NCBI GenBank assembly: GCA_030536145.1
Contig: JAUNQN010000006.1
Location: 1 to 64,000 of the forward strand
Direction: 5' to 3'
From: Akkermansia sp.
Lineage (GTDB): Bacteria > Verrucomicrobiota > Verrucomicrobiia > Verrucomicrobiales > Akkermansiaceae
Length of the DNA stretch: 64,000 bases
The position numbers and the translations under genes are program-made. This document shows, in pieces, positions 7,581-50,139 of the stretch (within the stretch, counting starts at the first letter, position 1; each line of letters opens with the position of its first letter). A model generated the notes under the pieces. It saw only the letters and a program-made list of their open reading frames with translations, made no database searches and was not told where the DNA came from.

Positions 7581-7608
7581 TTGCGGAAGGGCGCTTGCGG
7601 TGCATAAT
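7581..7608 (+). promoter_or_regulatory. candidate trp operon promoter
   Basis: TTGCGG, 16 bp, CATAAT; the -10 box ends 7 bases before the leader-peptide ATG at 7616. If right, the transcript would start at or next to that ATG. Confidence 0.5.
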
Positions 7609-7615
7609 AGGGGAA

Positions 7616-7690
7616 ATGATTTCCTTGCAGCACATCAACGGCAGCGTGTTCCGGGCGGAGGCCTGGAGCTGGCGAGGCCTTGCTTGTTGA
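7616..7690 (+). CDS. trpL: trp operon leader peptide with Trp-Ser-Trp
   Basis: A 24-codon open frame starting ATG ATT TCC and ending TGT TGA, just upstream of trpE. Two of its codons are TGG (7664-7666 and 7670-7672), giving Glu-Ala-Trp-Ser-Trp-Arg near the C-terminus, a density far above chance for a rare residue. AGGGGA stands immediately upstream, although the likely transcription start is very close to the ATG. The Trp codons lie in the loop of an AGGCCT/AGGCCT hairpin (7659-7664 with 7675-7680). Downstream come two more hairpins and a terminator before trpE. This is the layout of ribosome-mediated transcription attenuation: scarce charged tRNA-Trp stalls the ribosome at the TGG codons and changes RNA folding. 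Confidence 0.72.
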   Translation: MISLQHINGSVFRAEAWSWRGLAC

Positions 7691-7704
7691 CACAGGGAAG
7701 CAGC

Positions 7705-7740
7705 CCCGTGCGCCGCACGGGAGTGCCGCCGGAAGGCGGC
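7705..7740 (+). promoter_or_regulatory. trp leader hairpins
   Basis: Two perfect adjacent stems lie between the leader peptide and the terminator: CCCGTGC/GCACGGG (7705-7711 with 7715-7721) and GCCGCC/GGCGGC (7725-7730 with 7735-7740). They are candidates for pause or antiterminator elements; the exact alternative pairing needs a folding calculation. Confidence 0.5.
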
Positions 7741-7752
7741 ATGGCAGATACA

Positions 7753-7790
7753 CCGCTACGGCTTCCCGATGGGCCGCAGCGGTTTTTATT
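7753..7790 (+). terminator. trp attenuator (intrinsic terminator upstream of trpE)
   Basis: A stem of ten positions with one mismatch, CCGCTACGGC (7753-7762) with GCCGCAGCGG (7773-7782), is followed directly by TTTTTATTT. It lies inside the transcribed leader, 32 bases before the trpE ATG, so it can only serve as a conditional terminator. Together with the leader peptide it supports attenuation of the trp operon. Confidence 0.75.
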
Positions 7791-7821
7791 TACCGGGAAA
7801 TCTTACAAAGACACTTACACC

Positions 7822-9213
<1,392 letters not shown>

Positions 9214-9238: not shown

Positions 9239-9811
9239 ATGTTCCTTTTCATCGACAATTACGATTCCTTCTCCTACAACATCGTGCAGTATTTCATGCA
9301 GACCGGGCGCACGCCCACGGTGCTGACCAACGACAACCCGCGGCTGCTGGAGCTGGCCACGGACCCGGCGCTGGAGTACGTGGTGCTTTCCCCCGGCCCC
9401 AGCAACCCGGAGCATGCCGGGTACTGCCTGGAGTTCCTGGCCCGACTGCCGCACCACATCCCCGTGCTGGGCGTGTGCCTGGGCCACCAGTGCCTGGGCC
9501 ACTTTGCCGGCTGCCCCGTGGTGCGCGGCCCGCGCGTGATGCACGGCAAGACCAGTGAGATTACCCATGACGGCACCGGCCTGTACGCGGGCGTGTGCAA
9601 TCCCATGACCATAGGCCGCTACCACTCCCTGGTGGTGAAGGTGCCGGAGAACCACCCCCTGCTGGAGGTGACCGCCCGGGACGAGGACGGCGAGGTGCAG
9701 AGCATGCGCTACAAGGACCGCCCCTGGGTGGGCGTGCAGTACCACCCGGAGAGCATCCTGACCACGGACGGGCTCAAGCTCATCTCCAATTTCCCGGACA
9801 TGGTCCGCTGA
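9239..9811 (+). CDS. trpG: anthranilate synthase component II (glutamine amidotransferase)
   Basis: A 190-residue class I glutamine amidotransferase that feeds ammonia to TrpE. Motifs: FIDNYDSFSYNIVQYF at the N-terminus, LSPGPSNPEHAG (oxyanion region), the nucleophile Cys in GVCLGHQC, and the His-Glu pair in QYHPESILT. Normal length. It may also serve para-aminobenzoate synthesis, as single TrpG/PabA proteins do in many bacteria; the operon context supports TrpG as the main role. Confidence 0.93.
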   Translation: MFLFIDNYDSFSYNIVQYFMQTGRTPTVLTNDNPRLLELATDPALEYVVLSPGPSNPEHAGYCLEFLARLPHHIPVLGVCLGHQCLGHFAGCPVVRGPRVMHGKTSEITHDGTGLYAGVCNPMTIGRYHSLVVKVPENHPLLEVTARDEDGEVQSMRYKDRPWVGVQYHPESILTTDGLKLISNFPDMVR

Positions 9812-9851: not shown

Positions 9852-10925
9852 ATGAACCAAGTCAACTTTCCCAAGGCAGGTGTAATAGCCGCAGGCGTGG
9901 CCGCCGCAGGCATCATCTTTGCTTTCTGCAATTTCGGCAACCACGCCGTGGACGGCGGCTATGTGGCCTATGTGTATTCCAACCCCATCATGGGCAAGAA
10001 GGAGTTTATCTCCACCATCAACGGTCCCGGCGGCACCGGCTTCTGGTCCTGGAGACTCCAGACGGTGGATATCTCCGTGACTCCCTGGACGATGGAGGAG
10101 ACTTTCGATGATATCCTGGCCAAGGACAAGCTGATGATGAATGCCCAGGCCTCCCTGGTGTTCCGCATAGACCGCACGAAGGTGCGTGAGTTTGTGGAGA
10201 ATTACGGTGCCCTGAAGGAGGTGAACAACGACGACCCGGCATCCATCATCAAGGATGCCTACCTGAGTTTCATCCAGCAGCATTTCCGCTCCGCCATCCG
10301 CTCCGAGGTTTCCAAGTACGACGGCCTGGACGCCAGCTCCAGCATCCCCCAGATTACCCGCGCCGTGGAGACCGACCTGAAGACCAAGTTCGAGGGCACT
10401 CCCTTTATCGTGGAGTCCGTCACCATCGGCAGCACCACACCGCCCAAGAGCGTGACGGACGGCATTACCAAGAAGGTGGAGGTGGCCCAGGCTTATGAGC
10501 GCCAGGCCACGGAGCTGGCCATGGCCCAGCGCAGCGTGGAAATCAAGGAGGCAGAGGGCCGCGCCGCCGCCCGCAAGGCTGAGCAGGAGGCAGAGGGCCA
10601 GCGCCTGGCCGCCAAGCAGAAGGCGGATGCCGAGCTGTACGCCGCCAAGGCCCAGGCGGATGCCAAGCTGTATGCCGCCAAGGCGGAGGCCGAGGCCGTG
10701 GCTGCCGTCGGCGCCGCGGAGGCTGAGGCCATACGCGCCAAGTCCCAGGCCATCGGCAGCGGGTATGTCAACCTCCGCTTCGTGGAGAACCTGGACAAGC
10801 TCAAGCTGCCCACCACCATGGTGGGCGGGGATATCATGAAGCAGGTCACGGACCTCTTCTCATCCGTTCCCGCCGCCAAGCCCGCCGCCGCTACCGGCAC
10901 GGAACCGCAAACCCCTGAAAACTGA
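9852..10925 (+). CDS. SPFH/band-7 (prohibitin-like) membrane protein inside the trp operon
   Basis: A 357-residue protein with one N-terminal membrane segment (about residues 8-26), an SPFH domain (about 32-215) and a long Ala/Glu/Lys-rich coiled coil (about 215-300, with repeats of the AxLYAAKA(Q/E)A type). The C-terminal tail is Ala/Pro/Thr-rich. SPFH proteins assemble into large membrane rings that organise lipids or regulate membrane proteases such as FtsH. It sits between trpG (40 bases) and trpD (8 bases) on the same strand with no promoter or terminator that I can see, so it is probably co-transcribed with tryptophan genes although no metabolic link is known to me. Confidence 0.85.
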   Translation: MNQVNFPKAGVIAAGVAAAGIIFAFCNFGNHAVDGGYVAYVYSNPIMGKKEFISTINGPGGTGFWSWRLQTVDISVTPWTMEETFDDILAKDKLMMNAQASLVFRIDRTKVREFVENYGALKEVNNDDPASIIKDAYLSFIQQHFRSAIRSEVSKYDGLDASSSIPQITRAVETDLKTKFEGTPFIVESVTIGSTTPPKSVTDGITKKVEVAQAYERQATELAMAQRSVEIKEAEGRAAARKAEQEAEGQRLAAKQKADAELYAAKAQADAKLYAAKAEAEAVAAVGAAEAEAIRAKSQAIGSGYVNLRFVENLDKLKLPTTMVGGDIMKQVTDLFSSVPAAKPAAATGTEPQTPEN

Positions 10926-10933
10926 AAAGGCTT

Positions 10934-11938
10934 ATGACTATCTCCCACATACTGGACAAGCTGGCAGACGGGCTGGACCTGGAGCCGAGCGAGGCGCGCT
11001 GCGCCATGACGGAACTGATGGAGGGGCACCTTTCCCCCGCGCAGGCCGGGGCCCTGCTGCTCACCCTGCGCGCCAAGGGTGAGACGGCGCAGGAGCTGGC
11101 CGCCGCCGTGGAGGTGTGCCTGGACCGCGCCGTGCCCGTGGCGGGCATCAGCGGGGAGTACATCGACATCGTGGGTACGGGCGGGGACGGCAAGCACAGT
11201 TTCAACTGCTCCACCTGCGCCGCCCTGGTGGTGGCCGGCCTGGGCTACCAGGTACTCAAGCACGGCAACCGCGCCGTGTCCTCCTCCTCCGGCGCGGCAG
11301 ATGCGCTGGAGTGCCTGGGCTACCCGCTGGACCTGGACCCGGACGGCATCCGGGATTCCGTGCGCAAGAGCGGGTTTGCCTTCTGCCTGGCGCCGCACTA
11401 CCACCCCGGGTTCAAGGAGATTGTACCTATCCGCCGTGAGCTGGCCGTGCGCACGCTCTTCAACCTGCTGGGGCCCATGATCAATCCCTCCCGCCCCACG
11501 CATATCATGATGGGCGTGGCCAAGCCGGACATGGTGCAGAAGATTGCCCGCGTGCTGGCCCTGGGGTCCTACCGCCGCGCCCTGGTCATCCACGGCGCCG
11601 GCGGGTATGACGAGGCAACCGCCTTCGGCCCCGTGACCGCCGCCCTGGTGGAGGACGGCCAGGTGAAGCCCTTCACCTTCAATCCTGCGGACTACGGGTT
11701 CACCCCGCCTGCATCAGAGGATGAGCTGCGCGTGGAGACCCGCGAGGAGGCCGAGAAGGCCGTGCGCGACGTGGTGGCGGGGCAGGGTACCAGGGCCATG
11801 AGCGACATGGTGGCCCTCAACGTGGCCCTGGCGCTCAGCCTGCTGGCCCCGGAGCTGGATATGCAGTCCTGCGTTTCCCGCGCCCGCATGGCCGTGGCCC
11901 AGGGCGTGGCCATGAAGGTGATAGCCGCCTGGCAGTAA
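10934..11938 (+). CDS. trpD: anthranilate phosphoribosyltransferase
   Basis: A 334-residue glycosyltransferase family 3 enzyme that joins anthranilate to PRPP. Motifs: YIDIVGTGGDGKHSFNCST (PRPP/anthranilate binding), KHGNRAVSSSSGAADALE, FNLLGPMINPSRP and VIHGAGGYDEA, all as in known TrpD. Normal length. It starts 8 bases after the SPFH gene and is followed by trpC after 13 bases. Stand-alone, not fused to trpG. Confidence 0.95.
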   Translation: MTISHILDKLADGLDLEPSEARCAMTELMEGHLSPAQAGALLLTLRAKGETAQELAAAVEVCLDRAVPVAGISGEYIDIVGTGGDGKHSFNCSTCAALVVAGLGYQVLKHGNRAVSSSSGAADALECLGYPLDLDPDGIRDSVRKSGFAFCLAPHYHPGFKEIVPIRRELAVRTLFNLLGPMINPSRPTHIMMGVAKPDMVQKIARVLALGSYRRALVIHGAGGYDEATAFGPVTAALVEDGQVKPFTFNPADYGFTPPASEDELRVETREEAEKAVRDVVAGQGTRAMSDMVALNVALALSLLAPELDMQSCVSRARMAVAQGVAMKVIAAWQ

Positions 11939-11951
11939 CGCCGCTTCCGCT

Positions 11952-12719
11952 ATGGACTTGCAACGCTTTATCGATGCCAAGCAGGCGGAGCTGGAAGCCC
12001 TGCGCCGCGCCATGCCCGCCCCGCTGGAGGTGGCGCGGCCGGATTTCCTGCGCGCGCTCACGGCTCCGCCCCCTGCGGGGGAGCCGCTGCGCGTGATAGC
12101 GGAGTTCAAGCGCTCATCCCCCTCCGCCGGGGTTATCAACGACCGCCTGGACCCCGCGGACGTGGCGCGGCAGTATGCCGCCGGCGGTGCCGCCTGCATG
12201 AGCGTGCTTACGGAGGAGCGCTACTTCACCGGGCATGTGCGGGACCTTTCCGCCGCTGCCCCGGCAGGGATTCCCCTGCTGCGCAAGGATTTCATATTCA
12301 GTGAGCTGCAGGTGCGCCAAACCTTTGCCACCCCAGCCAGCGCCATGCTGCTCATTGTGGCGCTCACGCCGGATGCCGCGCAGCTGCGCGGCCTGCGTGA
12401 GCTGGCGGAGACACAGGGCATCCATGCCGTGGTGGAGGTGTTCACGGAGCGGGAGCTGGAGCTGGCGCGCGAGTCCGGCGCGCGTATCATTCAGGTGAAC
12501 GCCCGCAACCTGGAGACTTTCAAGACAGACCGCGTGGAGGGGCTCAAGCTGGCCGCCCACAGGCTGCCGGAGGAATGCTGGATTGCCGCCAGCGCCATGC
12601 AGGAGCACAGCCACCTGCAGGATGCCGCAGCCGCCGGCTACCACGCCGCCCTGGTGGGCACCGCGCTTATGAGCGGCAACTGCCCGCTGGACAACCTGCG
12701 CCGTATCCTGCATCCGTAA
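11952..12719 (+). CDS. trpC: indole-3-glycerol phosphate synthase
   Basis: A 255-residue TIM-barrel enzyme that cyclises CdRP to indole-3-glycerol phosphate. Motifs: VIAEFKRSSPSAGVI (catalytic Lys), CMSVLTEERYFTG, PLLRKDFIFSELQV (second Lys), VEVFTERELELA and IIQVNARNLETF. Stand-alone rather than fused to TrpF as in enterobacteria; TrpF follows immediately as the next gene (9 bases). Confidence 0.95.
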   Translation: MDLQRFIDAKQAELEALRRAMPAPLEVARPDFLRALTAPPPAGEPLRVIAEFKRSSPSAGVINDRLDPADVARQYAAGGAACMSVLTEERYFTGHVRDLSAAAPAGIPLLRKDFIFSELQVRQTFATPASAMLLIVALTPDAAQLRGLRELAETQGIHAVVEVFTERELELARESGARIIQVNARNLETFKTDRVEGLKLAAHRLPEECWIAASAMQEHSHLQDAAAAGYHAALVGTALMSGNCPLDNLRRILHP

Positions 12720-12728
12720 TTCACCGCC

Positions 12729-13874
12729 ATGCCTCCTTTCATCAAGGTTTGTGGACAGTCAGCCCCCGCTGCCGCGGCTTGTGCCGCCGCCCTGGGCGCG
12801 CGCTGGGTGGGCTTTATCTTCCACCAGGGCAGCCCGCGCTGCGTTACCCCGGAGCAGGCAGCCGCCATACCCACCCCCGGTGTGGGGCGCGTGGGCGTGT
12901 TTGTGCGCCAGGGGGCAGGGGAAATCCTGGAGATTGCCCGGCAGGCACGGCTTGATTTCATCCAGCTCCACGGCAGGCAGACCCAGCAGGATGCACAGGC
13001 CATCGGCCCGCAGCGCGTTGTCCGCGTGCTGTGGCCGGAGCACTGCGGCAGCCCGCAGGAGCTCCAGCGCCAGATAGACGAATGGGCCCCGTACTGTGCC
13101 TACTACCTGCTGGATGCCGGCTCATACGGCCAGGCGGGCGGGCAGGGGCGCAGGCTGGATTGCAGCGCCTTTGCCGCCCTGCATTTCCCCCACCCCTGGC
13201 TCCTGGCCGGGGGGCTGCATGCCGGGAACCTGGCAGAGGTGCTTTCCCAATGCAGCCCCGACGGGCTGGACCTGAACAGCGGCGTGGAAAGCGCCCCGGG
13301 TGTAAAGGACCCCGCGCTGCTGCGCGCCGCCTTTGCCGCAGCGGGCATGCCGCAGGTGCAGCCCCAGCTGCTCCCCGTACACCCTGCGGACCTGCCGCAG
13401 ATGAAGGCGGACATGCAGCAGGCATTCCAGCTGGGGTATGAGGCGTCTTACGGACCAAGCGAGACTCTCATCCTGCCGGAGAAGGACATAGACTACTCCC
13501 TGGGCCAGTCGGGGGCCGTGGCGTACAAGGCGGTGGTGAACGGCATCATGGCGGGCTGTGCCATCGTGGCCCTGCAGCCGGAAAAATCCACAGGTCACCT
13601 GGATTTCCTATACGTGAAACATGGCTTGCAGGGGCTGGGTATCGGTCTTGCCCTGTGGCAAATGGTGGAGGCCCGGCATCCGGAAATCCGCCGCTGGGAG
13701 ACTTGCACGCCGTACTTTGACCGCCGCAACATCCACTTCTACGTAAACCTCTGCGGTTTCCGTATCACGGAATTCTTCCACTCCCGCCACCCCATGCCGG
13801 ACGCACCGGATGATTTCACCGCCGATGGAGGGGACGGCATGTTCGCCTTTCTGAAAGAGCTGCCCCAAGGGTGA
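12729..13874 (+). CDS. trpF: phosphoribosylanthranilate isomerase fused to a GNAT acetyltransferase domain
   Basis: A 381-residue protein in two parts. Residues 1-205 are TrpF: KVCGQ with catalytic Cys8, FIQLHG (77-82), catalytic Asp129 in LLDAGSYGQAGGQGRRLD, LAGGLHAGNL (159-168) and LDLNSGVESAPGVKD (180-194). Residues about 214-350 are a GNAT domain: the acetyl-CoA loop is seen as GLQGLGIG (299-306) after the strand HLDFLYVK, followed by TPYFDRRNIHFYVNLCGF. A short proline-containing linker joins them. TrpF isomerises PRA to CdRP; the substrate of the acetyltransferase half is unknown. The frame is continuous with no sign of two genes. Last gene of the trp operon, convergent with pdxA. Confidence 0.9.
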   Translation: MPPFIKVCGQSAPAAAACAAALGARWVGFIFHQGSPRCVTPEQAAAIPTPGVGRVGVFVRQGAGEILEIARQARLDFIQLHGRQTQQDAQAIGPQRVVRVLWPEHCGSPQELQRQIDEWAPYCAYYLLDAGSYGQAGGQGRRLDCSAFAALHFPHPWLLAGGLHAGNLAEVLSQCSPDGLDLNSGVESAPGVKDPALLRAAFAAAGMPQVQPQLLPVHPADLPQMKADMQQAFQLGYEASYGPSETLILPEKDIDYSLGQSGAVAYKAVVNGIMAGCAIVALQPEKSTGHLDFLYVKHGLQGLGIGLALWQMVEARHPEIRRWETCTPYFDRRNIHFYVNLCGFRITEFFHSRHPMPDAPDDFTADGGDGMFAFLKELPQG

Positions 13875-34076: not shown

Positions 34077-36085
34077 TGCCCGGGCCGGACGACAGGCTGG
34101 AACGCCATTTCCGCCGGAGCCCGCTGCTGCTGCCGCTGGCGGCGGTGGCAGCCGTGGTGTGTGCCGTTCACGTGCATGCGGATTTCTGGCTGGCAGCGGC
34201 CTTTGCGCTGGGGGTGGCGCTTATCCTGCGCCTGTGGCGGCAGGCGGCGCTGTGCTTTGTACTGGGCGCTGCGGTGCTGATGCACTGCACCCTGCTGCAG
34301 CGCGATGCGGAAACCCTGCTGAAAGCGGTGGAGCCTGCCGGCGTGCTGCATGGGCGCGTGGCCGCGGTTTCCACGGAGTATATCACGGTGGAGCAGGGCA
34401 TTTGCGGCGGCAGGGTGTGGGTGTTCTGCCACGGGAACCTTGCCTGTGAACCCGGTGATACGGTGAGCCTTTCCGTTACCCGTGCGGAGCTGCCCCCGCC
34501 CCCGGTACGCGGTATGGCGGACCCGCAGGCGCAGATGCGCCGTGAGGGCGTGTGCGCCGCTTGTGACCTGGTGGAGGGGTGTGTATGCGGGCAGGATGTC
34601 TTCTCTTGGGCATACCTGCGCCGCCAGGCGCTGCTGCTGCGCAGCCGTGCCCTGGGTGCGCTGGCATGCGGGGAACCCGGCGCGGCGCAGGATATGCTGT
34701 GCGCCCTGCTGGCGGGGGATGGGCGGGCAGAATCCTCCCGCCCCGGCAGCGCGCTGCATCTGGCCGCGGCGGCGGGCTTGCCCGTGGCCTGCCTGTGGTG
34801 CCTGTCCGCGCTGCTGCTGCGTTTACTGCACCTTCCCGTGGTGTGGCGGCGCTGTCTGGTGCCGTTCCCGGCGGCATGCCTGGTGCTGCTTGGCGGGCTG
34901 GGTTGCAGCGCGCTTACCGCTTTCCTGGTGCTGATGGTGATGCACCTGCAAGGGCTGTTCAGCCGCCGCATTTGCCCGGATATAGCCCTGTGCGCCGCTG
35001 CGCTGGCGGTACTGCTGGCAGCCCCGTACCGCCTGTTCCACCCGGATTTCCTGCTGGCCTTTGCGGTGTATGCGGGGGTGTACCTGGCCGTGTGGGTGTG
35101 CGGCGTGCCTGCCGGGTTGCCTTGGCGCTCCCGGTGCCTGTACGGGCTGCGGCTGGTATCCGTAGGAGCCCTGGCCGTGTGGCTGTTCACCCTGCCGGTG
35201 TGCCTGGCCTGCTTCCATTCCCTGCATGCGTATGCCGCCGCCACGTGGGTGCTGCTGCTGCCGCTGCTGCCCGCCATCCTGCTGCTTGGCCTGTCCACGG
35301 TATTGCTGGGCTGGGTGCCGTACCTGGGAGCGGCCTTGCACTGGTGCGCCCTCCAGCCCTGTGCCCTGTACACGGCGGGGGCAGGGGCGCTGGATTCCCT
35401 TCCTGCCGCCTACAAACCCGCCTGCGAGTCCGCCGCGCCGGAGTCATCCCTGATTCTCAACGGGCGCTACGGCTCCACCGTGTGCGTGCTGGGCAACCCG
35501 GGCCTGGTCATCAACTGTGGCACGGCGGAGCAGGCGCAGCGCACTATCTGCCCCGCGCTGTTCCATGCGGGCTACCGCCCTGCCGCCCTGCTGCCCACCG
35601 GGCATACCAAGGCCCGCAGCGGCGGCACGGATGCCATGCTGCAGTACTGGCCGAACCTGAATGTCATCCGCACCGGGGATATACCGCCGCAGGGCTGTTC
35701 CTTTGCCACGGAGGCCGGGGTGTACACCGTTTTCCCAGCCAGCCGGGATATCCGCCACCGCCTGGATGCCAACAAGTCCCCCGTCATCCTGTGGCAGCAC
35801 GGCGGGCGGCGCGTGCTCTACGCGGGGGATGCCTCCGCCGCCACGTTCATGGCCGTGCCGGAGGAGGAGCGGCGGGCGGATACGCTGGTCATAGGCGGCA
35901 ATCCCGTGCAGCCCCTGCTGGATCCGCAGCTCATCCGCTCCACGGGTGCCACGCAAATCATCCTGCTCCCCTCTGCCCAAGACCTGCCGCTGGAGCCGCA
36001 GAACGTGGCCCCGGCCCAAATTATACGCCTGGCTCCCGGTTCCGTGTATGAGCCGGATATATCAGGGATTTCCCCTTCCATGTGA
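34076..36085 (+). CDS. ComEC/Rec2-like membrane protein with degenerate beta-lactamase domain
   Basis: A 669-residue inner-membrane protein matching the ComEC layout: DUF4131-like N-terminal part with two helices and an OB-like segment (1-165), a competence membrane domain with many helices (about 185-440), and a C-terminal metallo-beta-lactamase-like fold (about 455-650). ComEC carries incoming DNA across the membrane. In the C-terminal fold the usual HxHxDH-type metal motif is replaced (LPTGHTKARSGGTDAML), although the later VLYAGDAS strand is kept, so the nuclease activity is probably lost. TGATG overlap with the desulfurase. Confidence 0.85.
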   Translation: MPGPDDRLERHFRRSPLLLPLAAVAAVVCAVHVHADFWLAAAFALGVALILRLWRQAALCFVLGAAVLMHCTLLQRDAETLLKAVEPAGVLHGRVAAVSTEYITVEQGICGGRVWVFCHGNLACEPGDTVSLSVTRAELPPPPVRGMADPQAQMRREGVCAACDLVEGCVCGQDVFSWAYLRRQALLLRSRALGALACGEPGAAQDMLCALLAGDGRAESSRPGSALHLAAAAGLPVACLWCLSALLLRLLHLPVVWRRCLVPFPAACLVLLGGLGCSALTAFLVLMVMHLQGLFSRRICPDIALCAAALAVLLAAPYRLFHPDFLLAFAVYAGVYLAVWVCGVPAGLPWRSRCLYGLRLVSVGALAVWLFTLPVCLACFHSLHAYAAATWVLLLPLLPAILLLGLSTVLLGWVPYLGAALHWCALQPCALYTAGAGALDSLPAAYKPACESAAPESSLILNGRYGSTVCVLGNPGLVINCGTAEQAQRTICPALFHAGYRPAALLPTGHTKARSGGTDAMLQYWPNLNVIRTGDIPPQGCSFATEAGVYTVFPASRDIRHRLDANKSPVILWQHGGRRVLYAGDASAATFMAVPEEERRADTLVIGGNPVQPLLDPQLIRSTGATQIILLPSAQDLPLEPQNVAPAQIIRLAPGSVYEPDISGISPSM

Positions 36086-48882: not shown

Positions 48883-50139
48883 TTAGAATCCGTGGCCGTC
48901 GCCGTAGCCGTAGTGCTCTGCCACGTAGTCCACGTCCTTGTCACCGCGCCCGGAGCAGTTGGCCAGGATGGCGCCCGTACCCATTTCCCGTGCGCGGCGC
49001 ATGGCGTATGCCACGGCGTGGGAGCTTTCCAGGGCGGGGATGATACCCTCGTACCGGGAGAGCTTGAAGAAGGCGTCCACGGCCTCCTCGTCCGTCACGG
49101 TATCATACTGCACGCGGCCAATCTCACGCAGGTAGGCGTGCTCCGGGCCCACGCTGGGGTAGTCCAGGCCGCTGGCCACGGAATAGGCGGGGGCGGGTTC
49201 TCCGTGGGCATCCTTCAGCATAATACTGTTGAAACCGTGCAGCACACCCTCCGTACCGTAGGTCATGGAGGCAGCGTGGTCTCCCAGTGCGGAGCCGCGG
49301 CCCAGAGGCTCCACGCCCACTATCTCCACCGGGTCGTTCAGGAAGGCGGGGAACATGCCCATGGCATTGGAGCCGCCGCCCACGCAGGCGCACACCACAT
49401 CCGGCATGATGCCGGTCATCTCCATGAACTGGTCACGCGCCTCATCCCCCACCACGCGCTGGAAATCACGCACCATCATGGGGAAGGGGTGGGGACCCAC
49501 CACGGAACCGATGCAGTAGATGGCGGTCTTGTAGTCCCGCATGTAGGCCTGGAAGGCGGAGTCCACGGCCTCCTTGAGCGTTTTCTGGCCGTGGGTGGCG
49601 GGCACCACGGTGGCGCCCAGCATCTTCATGCGGGTCACGTTCGGCGCCTGCTTGGCGATATCCACCTCACCCATGTGAATCTCACACTCCAGGCCGAAAT
49701 AGGCTGCGGCGGTGGCCAGGGCTACGCCGTGCTGGCCGGCCCCGGTCTCGGCAATAATCTTCTTCTTGCCCAGGTACTTGGCCAGCAGGCCCTCACCCAT
49801 GCAGTGGTTGAGCTTGTGGGCTCCGGTGTGGTTCAGGTCCTCTCTCTTCAGGTAGATCTGGGCGCCGCCGTTCAGGCGGGAAAGGCGCTCACAGTGGTAC
49901 ACGGGGGTGGGGCGGCCCTGGAACTCCCGGCGTATGCGGCGCAGCTCACTGATGAACTGGGCGGAATGGCAGATGCTGTGGTAGGCCTCCGTAATTTCCC
50001 GGAAGGCGGGTTCCAGCTCCGGCGGCAGGTAGGCGCCGCCAAAGCGGCCGAAATAGCCGTTCTTGTCCGGGTGGTTGCGGAAATAGGAGCGGAAATCCGG
50101 CATGGGGGCGCCGGGCGTGCAGTTGTTCTCTGTGCTCAT
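48883..50139 (-). CDS. trpB: tryptophan synthase beta chain
   Basis: A 418-residue PLP enzyme condensing indole and serine. Motifs: [30 protein letters not shown] with the PLP Lys, [31 protein letters not shown] and CSGRGDKD. Normal TrpB1 length. It lies 30 bases after the L,D-transpeptidase gene and apart from the other trp genes; trpA is not adjacent and not in the window. Confidence 0.94.

Follow-up and report, generated by a model that had tools for sequence, protein, structure and literature searches.

The window, as we call the whole stretch of 64,000 nt of Akkermansia DNA that was analysed, contains a group of tryptophan biosynthesis genes preceded directly by a short leader region. 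The genes are arranged as follows:

7822-9213, forward strand: trpE, anthranilate synthase component I, of Desulfovibrionales descent
9239-9811, forward strand: trpG, operon gene
9852-10925, forward strand: Band_7/SPFH gene inserted between trpG and trpD
10934-11938, forward strand: trpD, operon gene
11952-12719, forward strand: trpC, operon gene
12729-13874, forward strand: trpF fused to a GNAT domain (GNAT part 13359-13874)

Neither the Band_7/SPFH insertion nor the trpF-GNAT fusion was found in any of the relatives whose trp operons we compared, including L003, whose TrpE is 92% identical. A second trpB, about 50% identical, lies outside the trp operon on the reverse strand of the window (48913-50064) and is also found in most Akkermansia genomes that lack trpE. 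A scan of the 64-kb window for other amino-acid leaders found none. Upstream of trpE, the following elements can be delineated:

7581-7608, forward strand: predicted promoter, TTGCGG (7581-7586), a 16-nt spacer and CATAAT (7603-7608), with the -10 box ending 7 nt before the leader ATG
7616-7690, forward strand: leader ORF encoding MISLQHINGSVFRAEAWSWRGLAC, predicted to be leaderless
7620-7627, forward strand: segment 1 (protector), TTTCCTTG, predicted, from the folding of this one sequence only, to hold segment 2 as long as the RNA is free of ribosomes
7664-7672, forward strand: control codons TGG AGC TGG (Trp-Ser-Trp), kept in relatives as W-x-W, WW or WWW with variable flanking residues
7695-7701, forward strand: segment 2, GGGAAGC, the 5' side of the antiterminator
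7705-7721, forward strand: G+C-rich hairpin in the interval between segments 2 and 3, as folded; variable in relatives
7723-7742, forward strand: second G+C-rich hairpin in the same interval, as folded; variable in relatives
7752-7791, forward strand: intrinsic terminator (stem 7752-7783, T-run 7783-7791)
7761-7767, forward strand: segment 3, GCTTCCC, located in the terminator's 5' arm and loop; partner of segment 2 in the antiterminator

The preliminary description of this locus had recognized a 24-codon frame with two TGG codons three bases apart, two further hairpins and a terminator with a T-run, all upstream of trpE, and each of these features is indeed present. The frame opens with the ATG at 7616 and closes with the stop codon at 7688-7690, its Trp codons (7664-7666 and 7670-7672) are separated by AGC, and the terminator stem is followed by TTTTTATTT. 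In one respect the description has to be corrected: the first hairpin (7640-7679) holds the TGG codons in its 3' arm and not in its loop. The T-run is separated from trpE by about 30 nt, which is too short for another promoter.

Comparison of the leader across relatives reveals that the Trp codons are conserved. Among 30 trpE-bearing Akkermansia genomes, picked by TrpE similarity alone and blind to the leader, 29 possess a W-x-W, WW or WWW leader about 120-215 nt 5' of trpE, and its recurrence in the same place argues that the leader is not there by chance. Outside the Trp codons the Akkermansia leader peptides vary widely. In the sole trpE-bearing Akkermansia species without the leader (L004/L084), an exception that weighs against the model, the region 5' of trpE holds a tRNA-Ala gene together with a hairpin that resembles a terminator.

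The leader RNA is more stable than its dinucleotide shuffles (z about -3.3), and folding yields two mutually exclusive pairings: an antiterminator, in which GGGAAGC of segment 2 (7695-7701) pairs with GCTTCCC of segment 3 (7761-7767), and the terminator stem 7752-7783, whose upper 5' arm the antiterminator overlaps. That the overlap is limited to this upper part counts against the model. With the RNA masked to 7684, to mimic a ribosome at the Trp codons, and cut off ahead of segment 4, the lowest-energy structure is the antiterminator; masking to 7703, which mimics a ribosome that has reached the stop codon, lets the terminator fold. At equilibrium the complete RNA folds preferentially into the terminator, also when the Trp codons are occupied by the ribosome; control must therefore be kinetic, as is also the case in other attenuators. 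The spacing agrees with the model: segment 2 begins 22 nt after the last Trp codon and 4 nt after the stop codon, so that a ribosome stalled at the former leaves it free and a ribosome at the latter covers it, and the distances in relatives are of the same order.

The pairing of segments 2 and 3 is further supported by its covariation. For 25 leaders from trpE, trpB and Desulfovibrionaceae (L027, L131 and L136 were left out, as their terminators were missed or the wrong hairpin was chosen automatically), the duplex with the leader's own partner has a mean energy of -17.9 kcal/mol compared to -13.3 kcal/mol with swapped partners, and none of 20,000 permutations was as low. In an alignment of 17 leaders, which was stitched by hand in the pairing register and hence leans towards structure, 92% of the cells are paired versus 76% after shuffling and 38-60% in slid registers. 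Seven of the eight pairs between the segments exhibit two-sided changes, e.g. G-C to U-A in L019 and A-U to G-C in L011. The alignment omits one leader with another register (L147) and five with wholly different segments (L005, L008-L010 and L036), in which both segments have been swapped for other complementary sequences.

These data allow us to weigh the view that the terminator is constitutive or leaky and that the short ORF in front of it is fortuitous, with no amino-acid sensing at all. The terminator is strong on its own, and the argument for Trp sensing is drawn from sequence. However, such a view leaves unexplained why the Trp codons are kept throughout the genus and into the Desulfovibrionaceae while the remaining peptide varies, why the antiterminator covaries, and why a second copy of the attenuator precedes trpB (see below); we consider it very improbable. 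Known regulators of other types were likewise sought and rejected. No Rfam family (Trp_leader, T-box or others) scored above its gathering threshold for the leader, and neither TrpR nor TRAP (PF02081) was found in the window's genome and 19 relatives in searches whose E. coli and B. subtilis controls, respectively, were positive. Sensing by RNA or protein instead of the ribosome, be it a T-box, TRAP or an unknown riboswitch, might give a role to the two additional hairpins that separate segment 2 from segment 3, which have none in the simplest model. However, these hairpins are not conserved while the control codons are, and with neither an Rfam match nor a TRAP gene such sensing appears to us even less credible than a merely constitutive terminator.

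We therefore regard the element as a ribosome-mediated transcription attenuator of the trp operon, with a probability of roughly 0.93. This agrees with the preliminary description, and is supported by the conserved Trp codons, the terminator, the covarying and exclusive antiterminator, the spacing, and the trp genes downstream. It is a new member of an established type, and its relatives show horizontal transfer. Searching the literature for trp attenuation in Akkermansia or Verrucomicrobia, for trp leaders of Desulfovibrio and for leaders with Tyr codons gave nothing relevant; the search did not reach most subscription journals, and its outcome is weak evidence of novelty.

The position of the promoter hints at how translation of the leader begins. 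The promoter in the window is weak by consensus, which also counts against the model, and a consensus promoter scan did not detect it at this leader. When the best-scoring promoter within 190 nt 5' of the Trp codons was selected regardless of the position of the ATG, about 30 of 33 Akkermansia leaders (of trpE or trpB) turned out to have a -10 box that ends 7-10 nt upstream of an ATG reading in frame into the Trp codons. This distance leaves no room for a Shine-Dalgarno sequence in the transcript, and thus the Akkermansia trp leader mRNA is probably leaderless. Leaderless transcripts account for 10% of the mapped start sites of A. muciniphila (PMC4782308), and a known case is trpL of Sinorhizobium meliloti, in which transcript and leader ORF start at the same ATG (PMC7298713).

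We propose that RNA polymerase would initiate at the leader ATG or no more than a few bases away, and that a ribosome would begin translating the 24 codons at once. If charged tRNA-Trp were scarce, the ribosome would be expected to stall over 7664-7672, with about 22 nt still to go to segment 2; the free segment 2 could then pair with segment 3 before segment 4 exists, no terminator would form, and trpEG...F would be transcribed. If Trp were plentiful, the ribosome would reach the stop codon and mask segment 2, segments 3 and 4 would pair to form the stem, and transcription would end at the T-run. The anatomy, the conservation, the covarying antiterminator and the geometry are observed; the start site, the stalling of the ribosome and the response to Trp are inferred. 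Translation of a tiny peptide gene probably senses Trp and switches the trp genes on and off, which would provide a probable sequence-level account of how Trp synthesis is controlled in a widely studied gut genus.

In its general design the leader resembles trpL of E. coli (RF00513), which also has a leader peptide with Trp codons, a terminator before trpE, an antiterminator that excludes it, and a segment 2 that the ribosome masks on reaching the stop codon. Unlike trpL, the leader in the window matches no Rfam family, its two Trp codons are split by Ser, it has extra hairpins in the interval between segments 2 and 3, it is predicted to be leaderless, and no TrpR partner was found. Also comparable is trpL/rnTrpL of S. 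meliloti, an attenuator 5' of trpE whose RNA starts at the leader ATG (PMC7298713), as is predicted for the leader in the window; in both genomes the trp genes are split over several loci. However, only trpE(G) is attenuated in S. meliloti, whereas trpB has its own copy in the genome of the window, and the S. meliloti peptide is unlike that of the window. Action in trans has been reported for rnTrpL/peTrpL of S. meliloti. By analogy, the RNA of about 175 nt released by termination in Akkermansia, and the peptide that it encodes, might act in trans as well, besides attenuation. The released RNA would likewise be leaderless with the ORF first (cf. PMC7298713), but the peptide is poorly conserved in Akkermansia outside the Trp codons, which argues against a conserved function of the peptide, and we regard such an additional role as rather unlikely.

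The attenuator appears to have a foreign origin, together with its operon. TrpE proteins within Akkermansia are 57-92% identical to that of the window, those of Desulfovibrionales about 48-59%, and those of other Verrucomicrobiales, including other genera of Akkermansia's own family, about 40%. In a tree of 99 TrpE sequences, the 34 from Akkermansia fall inside the Desulfovibrionales as a sister group of gut Desulfovibrionaceae (L026-L031) with SH-aLRT support of 100, and 20 other Verrucomicrobiales form a separate clade. Forcing the Akkermansia TrpE to group with the other Verrucomicrobiales costs 225 log-likelihood units, and this topology is rejected (p-AU 2e-4). Such a leader is absent from the 20 other Verrucomicrobiales, which represent several families including that of Akkermansia; the few W-x-W matches in them are long or misplaced frames. 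The sister gut Desulfovibrionaceae share the gene order E-G-D-C-F-B and possess a leader with WWW, and it is therefore most likely that operon and attenuator reached the ancestor of Akkermansia together from a relative of gut Desulfovibrionaceae, presumably in a single event.

In this context, the preliminary remark that few such leaders are documented for Verrucomicrobiota, where T-box and TRAP systems are not typical either, needs to be qualified. The leader is not general to the phylum: among the genomes sampled it is confined to Akkermansia, a genus that has its trp operon from Desulfovibrionales. The leaders of the Desulfovibrionaceae (L026-L031), the nearest kin by TrpE, likewise contain Trp codons and a covarying pairing of segments 2 and 3. 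They differ in that the WWW is contiguous, segment 2 lies inside the ORF, and most are not leaderless, but have a Shine-Dalgarno sequence and a 5' UTR of 31-41 nt (in three of four scanned, the -10 box is 31-41 nt from the ATG and a Shine-Dalgarno sequence is present). We suggest that after the transfer the attenuator would have become leaderless and been copied before trpB. If so, a regulatory RNA crossed phyla with its operon, and then the Shine-Dalgarno sequence gave way to leaderless initiation. Many Desulfovibrionales carry upstream of trpE a trp leader peptide of 53-60 residues (L034, L035, L037, L039, L040, L042, L043, L045, L068 and L074), whose N-terminal part is conserved (MLxxDxxLF..NP...AAGGD..) and whose WWW lies close to the end; those peptides that were searched matched no Pfam or NCBIfam family.

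The copy before trpB is found in the same genome at about 34890-35030 of contig C33, within L002 1470-1660 (about 34890-35080), and consists of a leader peptide (MNDFSHSANMTEAWSWRRP), GGGAAGC ... GGCTTCCCGATG and a terminator, followed by trpB. In A. muciniphila and Desulfovibrionaceae trpB follows trpF in the operon, so the second copy fits a split of the operon, at which the attenuator would have been copied. Other species with a split trpB also have a trpB attenuator (L131, L132, L136-L138 and L147), while a rabbit-derived clade has a plain promoter before trpB. A pattern search for further copies found attenuator-like matches only before trpE, trpB and trpF-like genes; the remaining exact matches resemble, at first sight, coding or unrelated sequence.

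The matches before trpF-like genes suggest that the attenuator has changed its specificity. trpE is present in 35 of 76 Akkermansia genomes, and 11 of 37 trpE-less genomes searched contain a lone, divergent trpF-like gene, which is frame-broken in one of them (G307). All 11 of these genes are preceded by a homologous leader (L187, L192, L194, L200, L205, L210, L211, L216, L233, L234 and L235) in which Tyr codons replace Trp, as in MISPASSNADMHSYAAMYYYYAL, MTTPVNRDRMMHGTAAMYYYYAL and MISRGISNSVTKMQDAFCSSFYYYLLN; none contains Trp, the peptides end e.g. in ...MYYYYAL or ...SAYYSYYCY, and the Tyr codons vary synonymously between TAT and TAC. The -10 box lies 8-9 nt before the start in most of them, segment 2 GGGAAGC and the terminator are retained, the first codons ATG ATT TCC are also those of the window's own leader, and the terminator of L216 closely matches that of the trpE leader L014. 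These shared features make descent from the Trp leader likely, and we infer from the codons that these leaders would respond to Tyr.

The controlled enzyme seems to have changed as well. The trpF-like proteins match the Pfam PRAI family weakly and lack a loop and the Gly-Gly motif present in the TrpF of the window; one TrpF reference row in this comparison serves as a lead only. It is probable, in our estimation, that the attenuator was naturally re-coded from Trp to Tyr in conjunction with a change of function of the enzyme that it controls; such a step would allow a direct test, among close relatives, of how the specificity of attenuators evolves. The trpF-like genes are under purifying selection, with dN/dS of about 0.06-0.3, and in the TrpF tree their products fall on one side of a branch (96/92), which is consistent with a single change of specificity.
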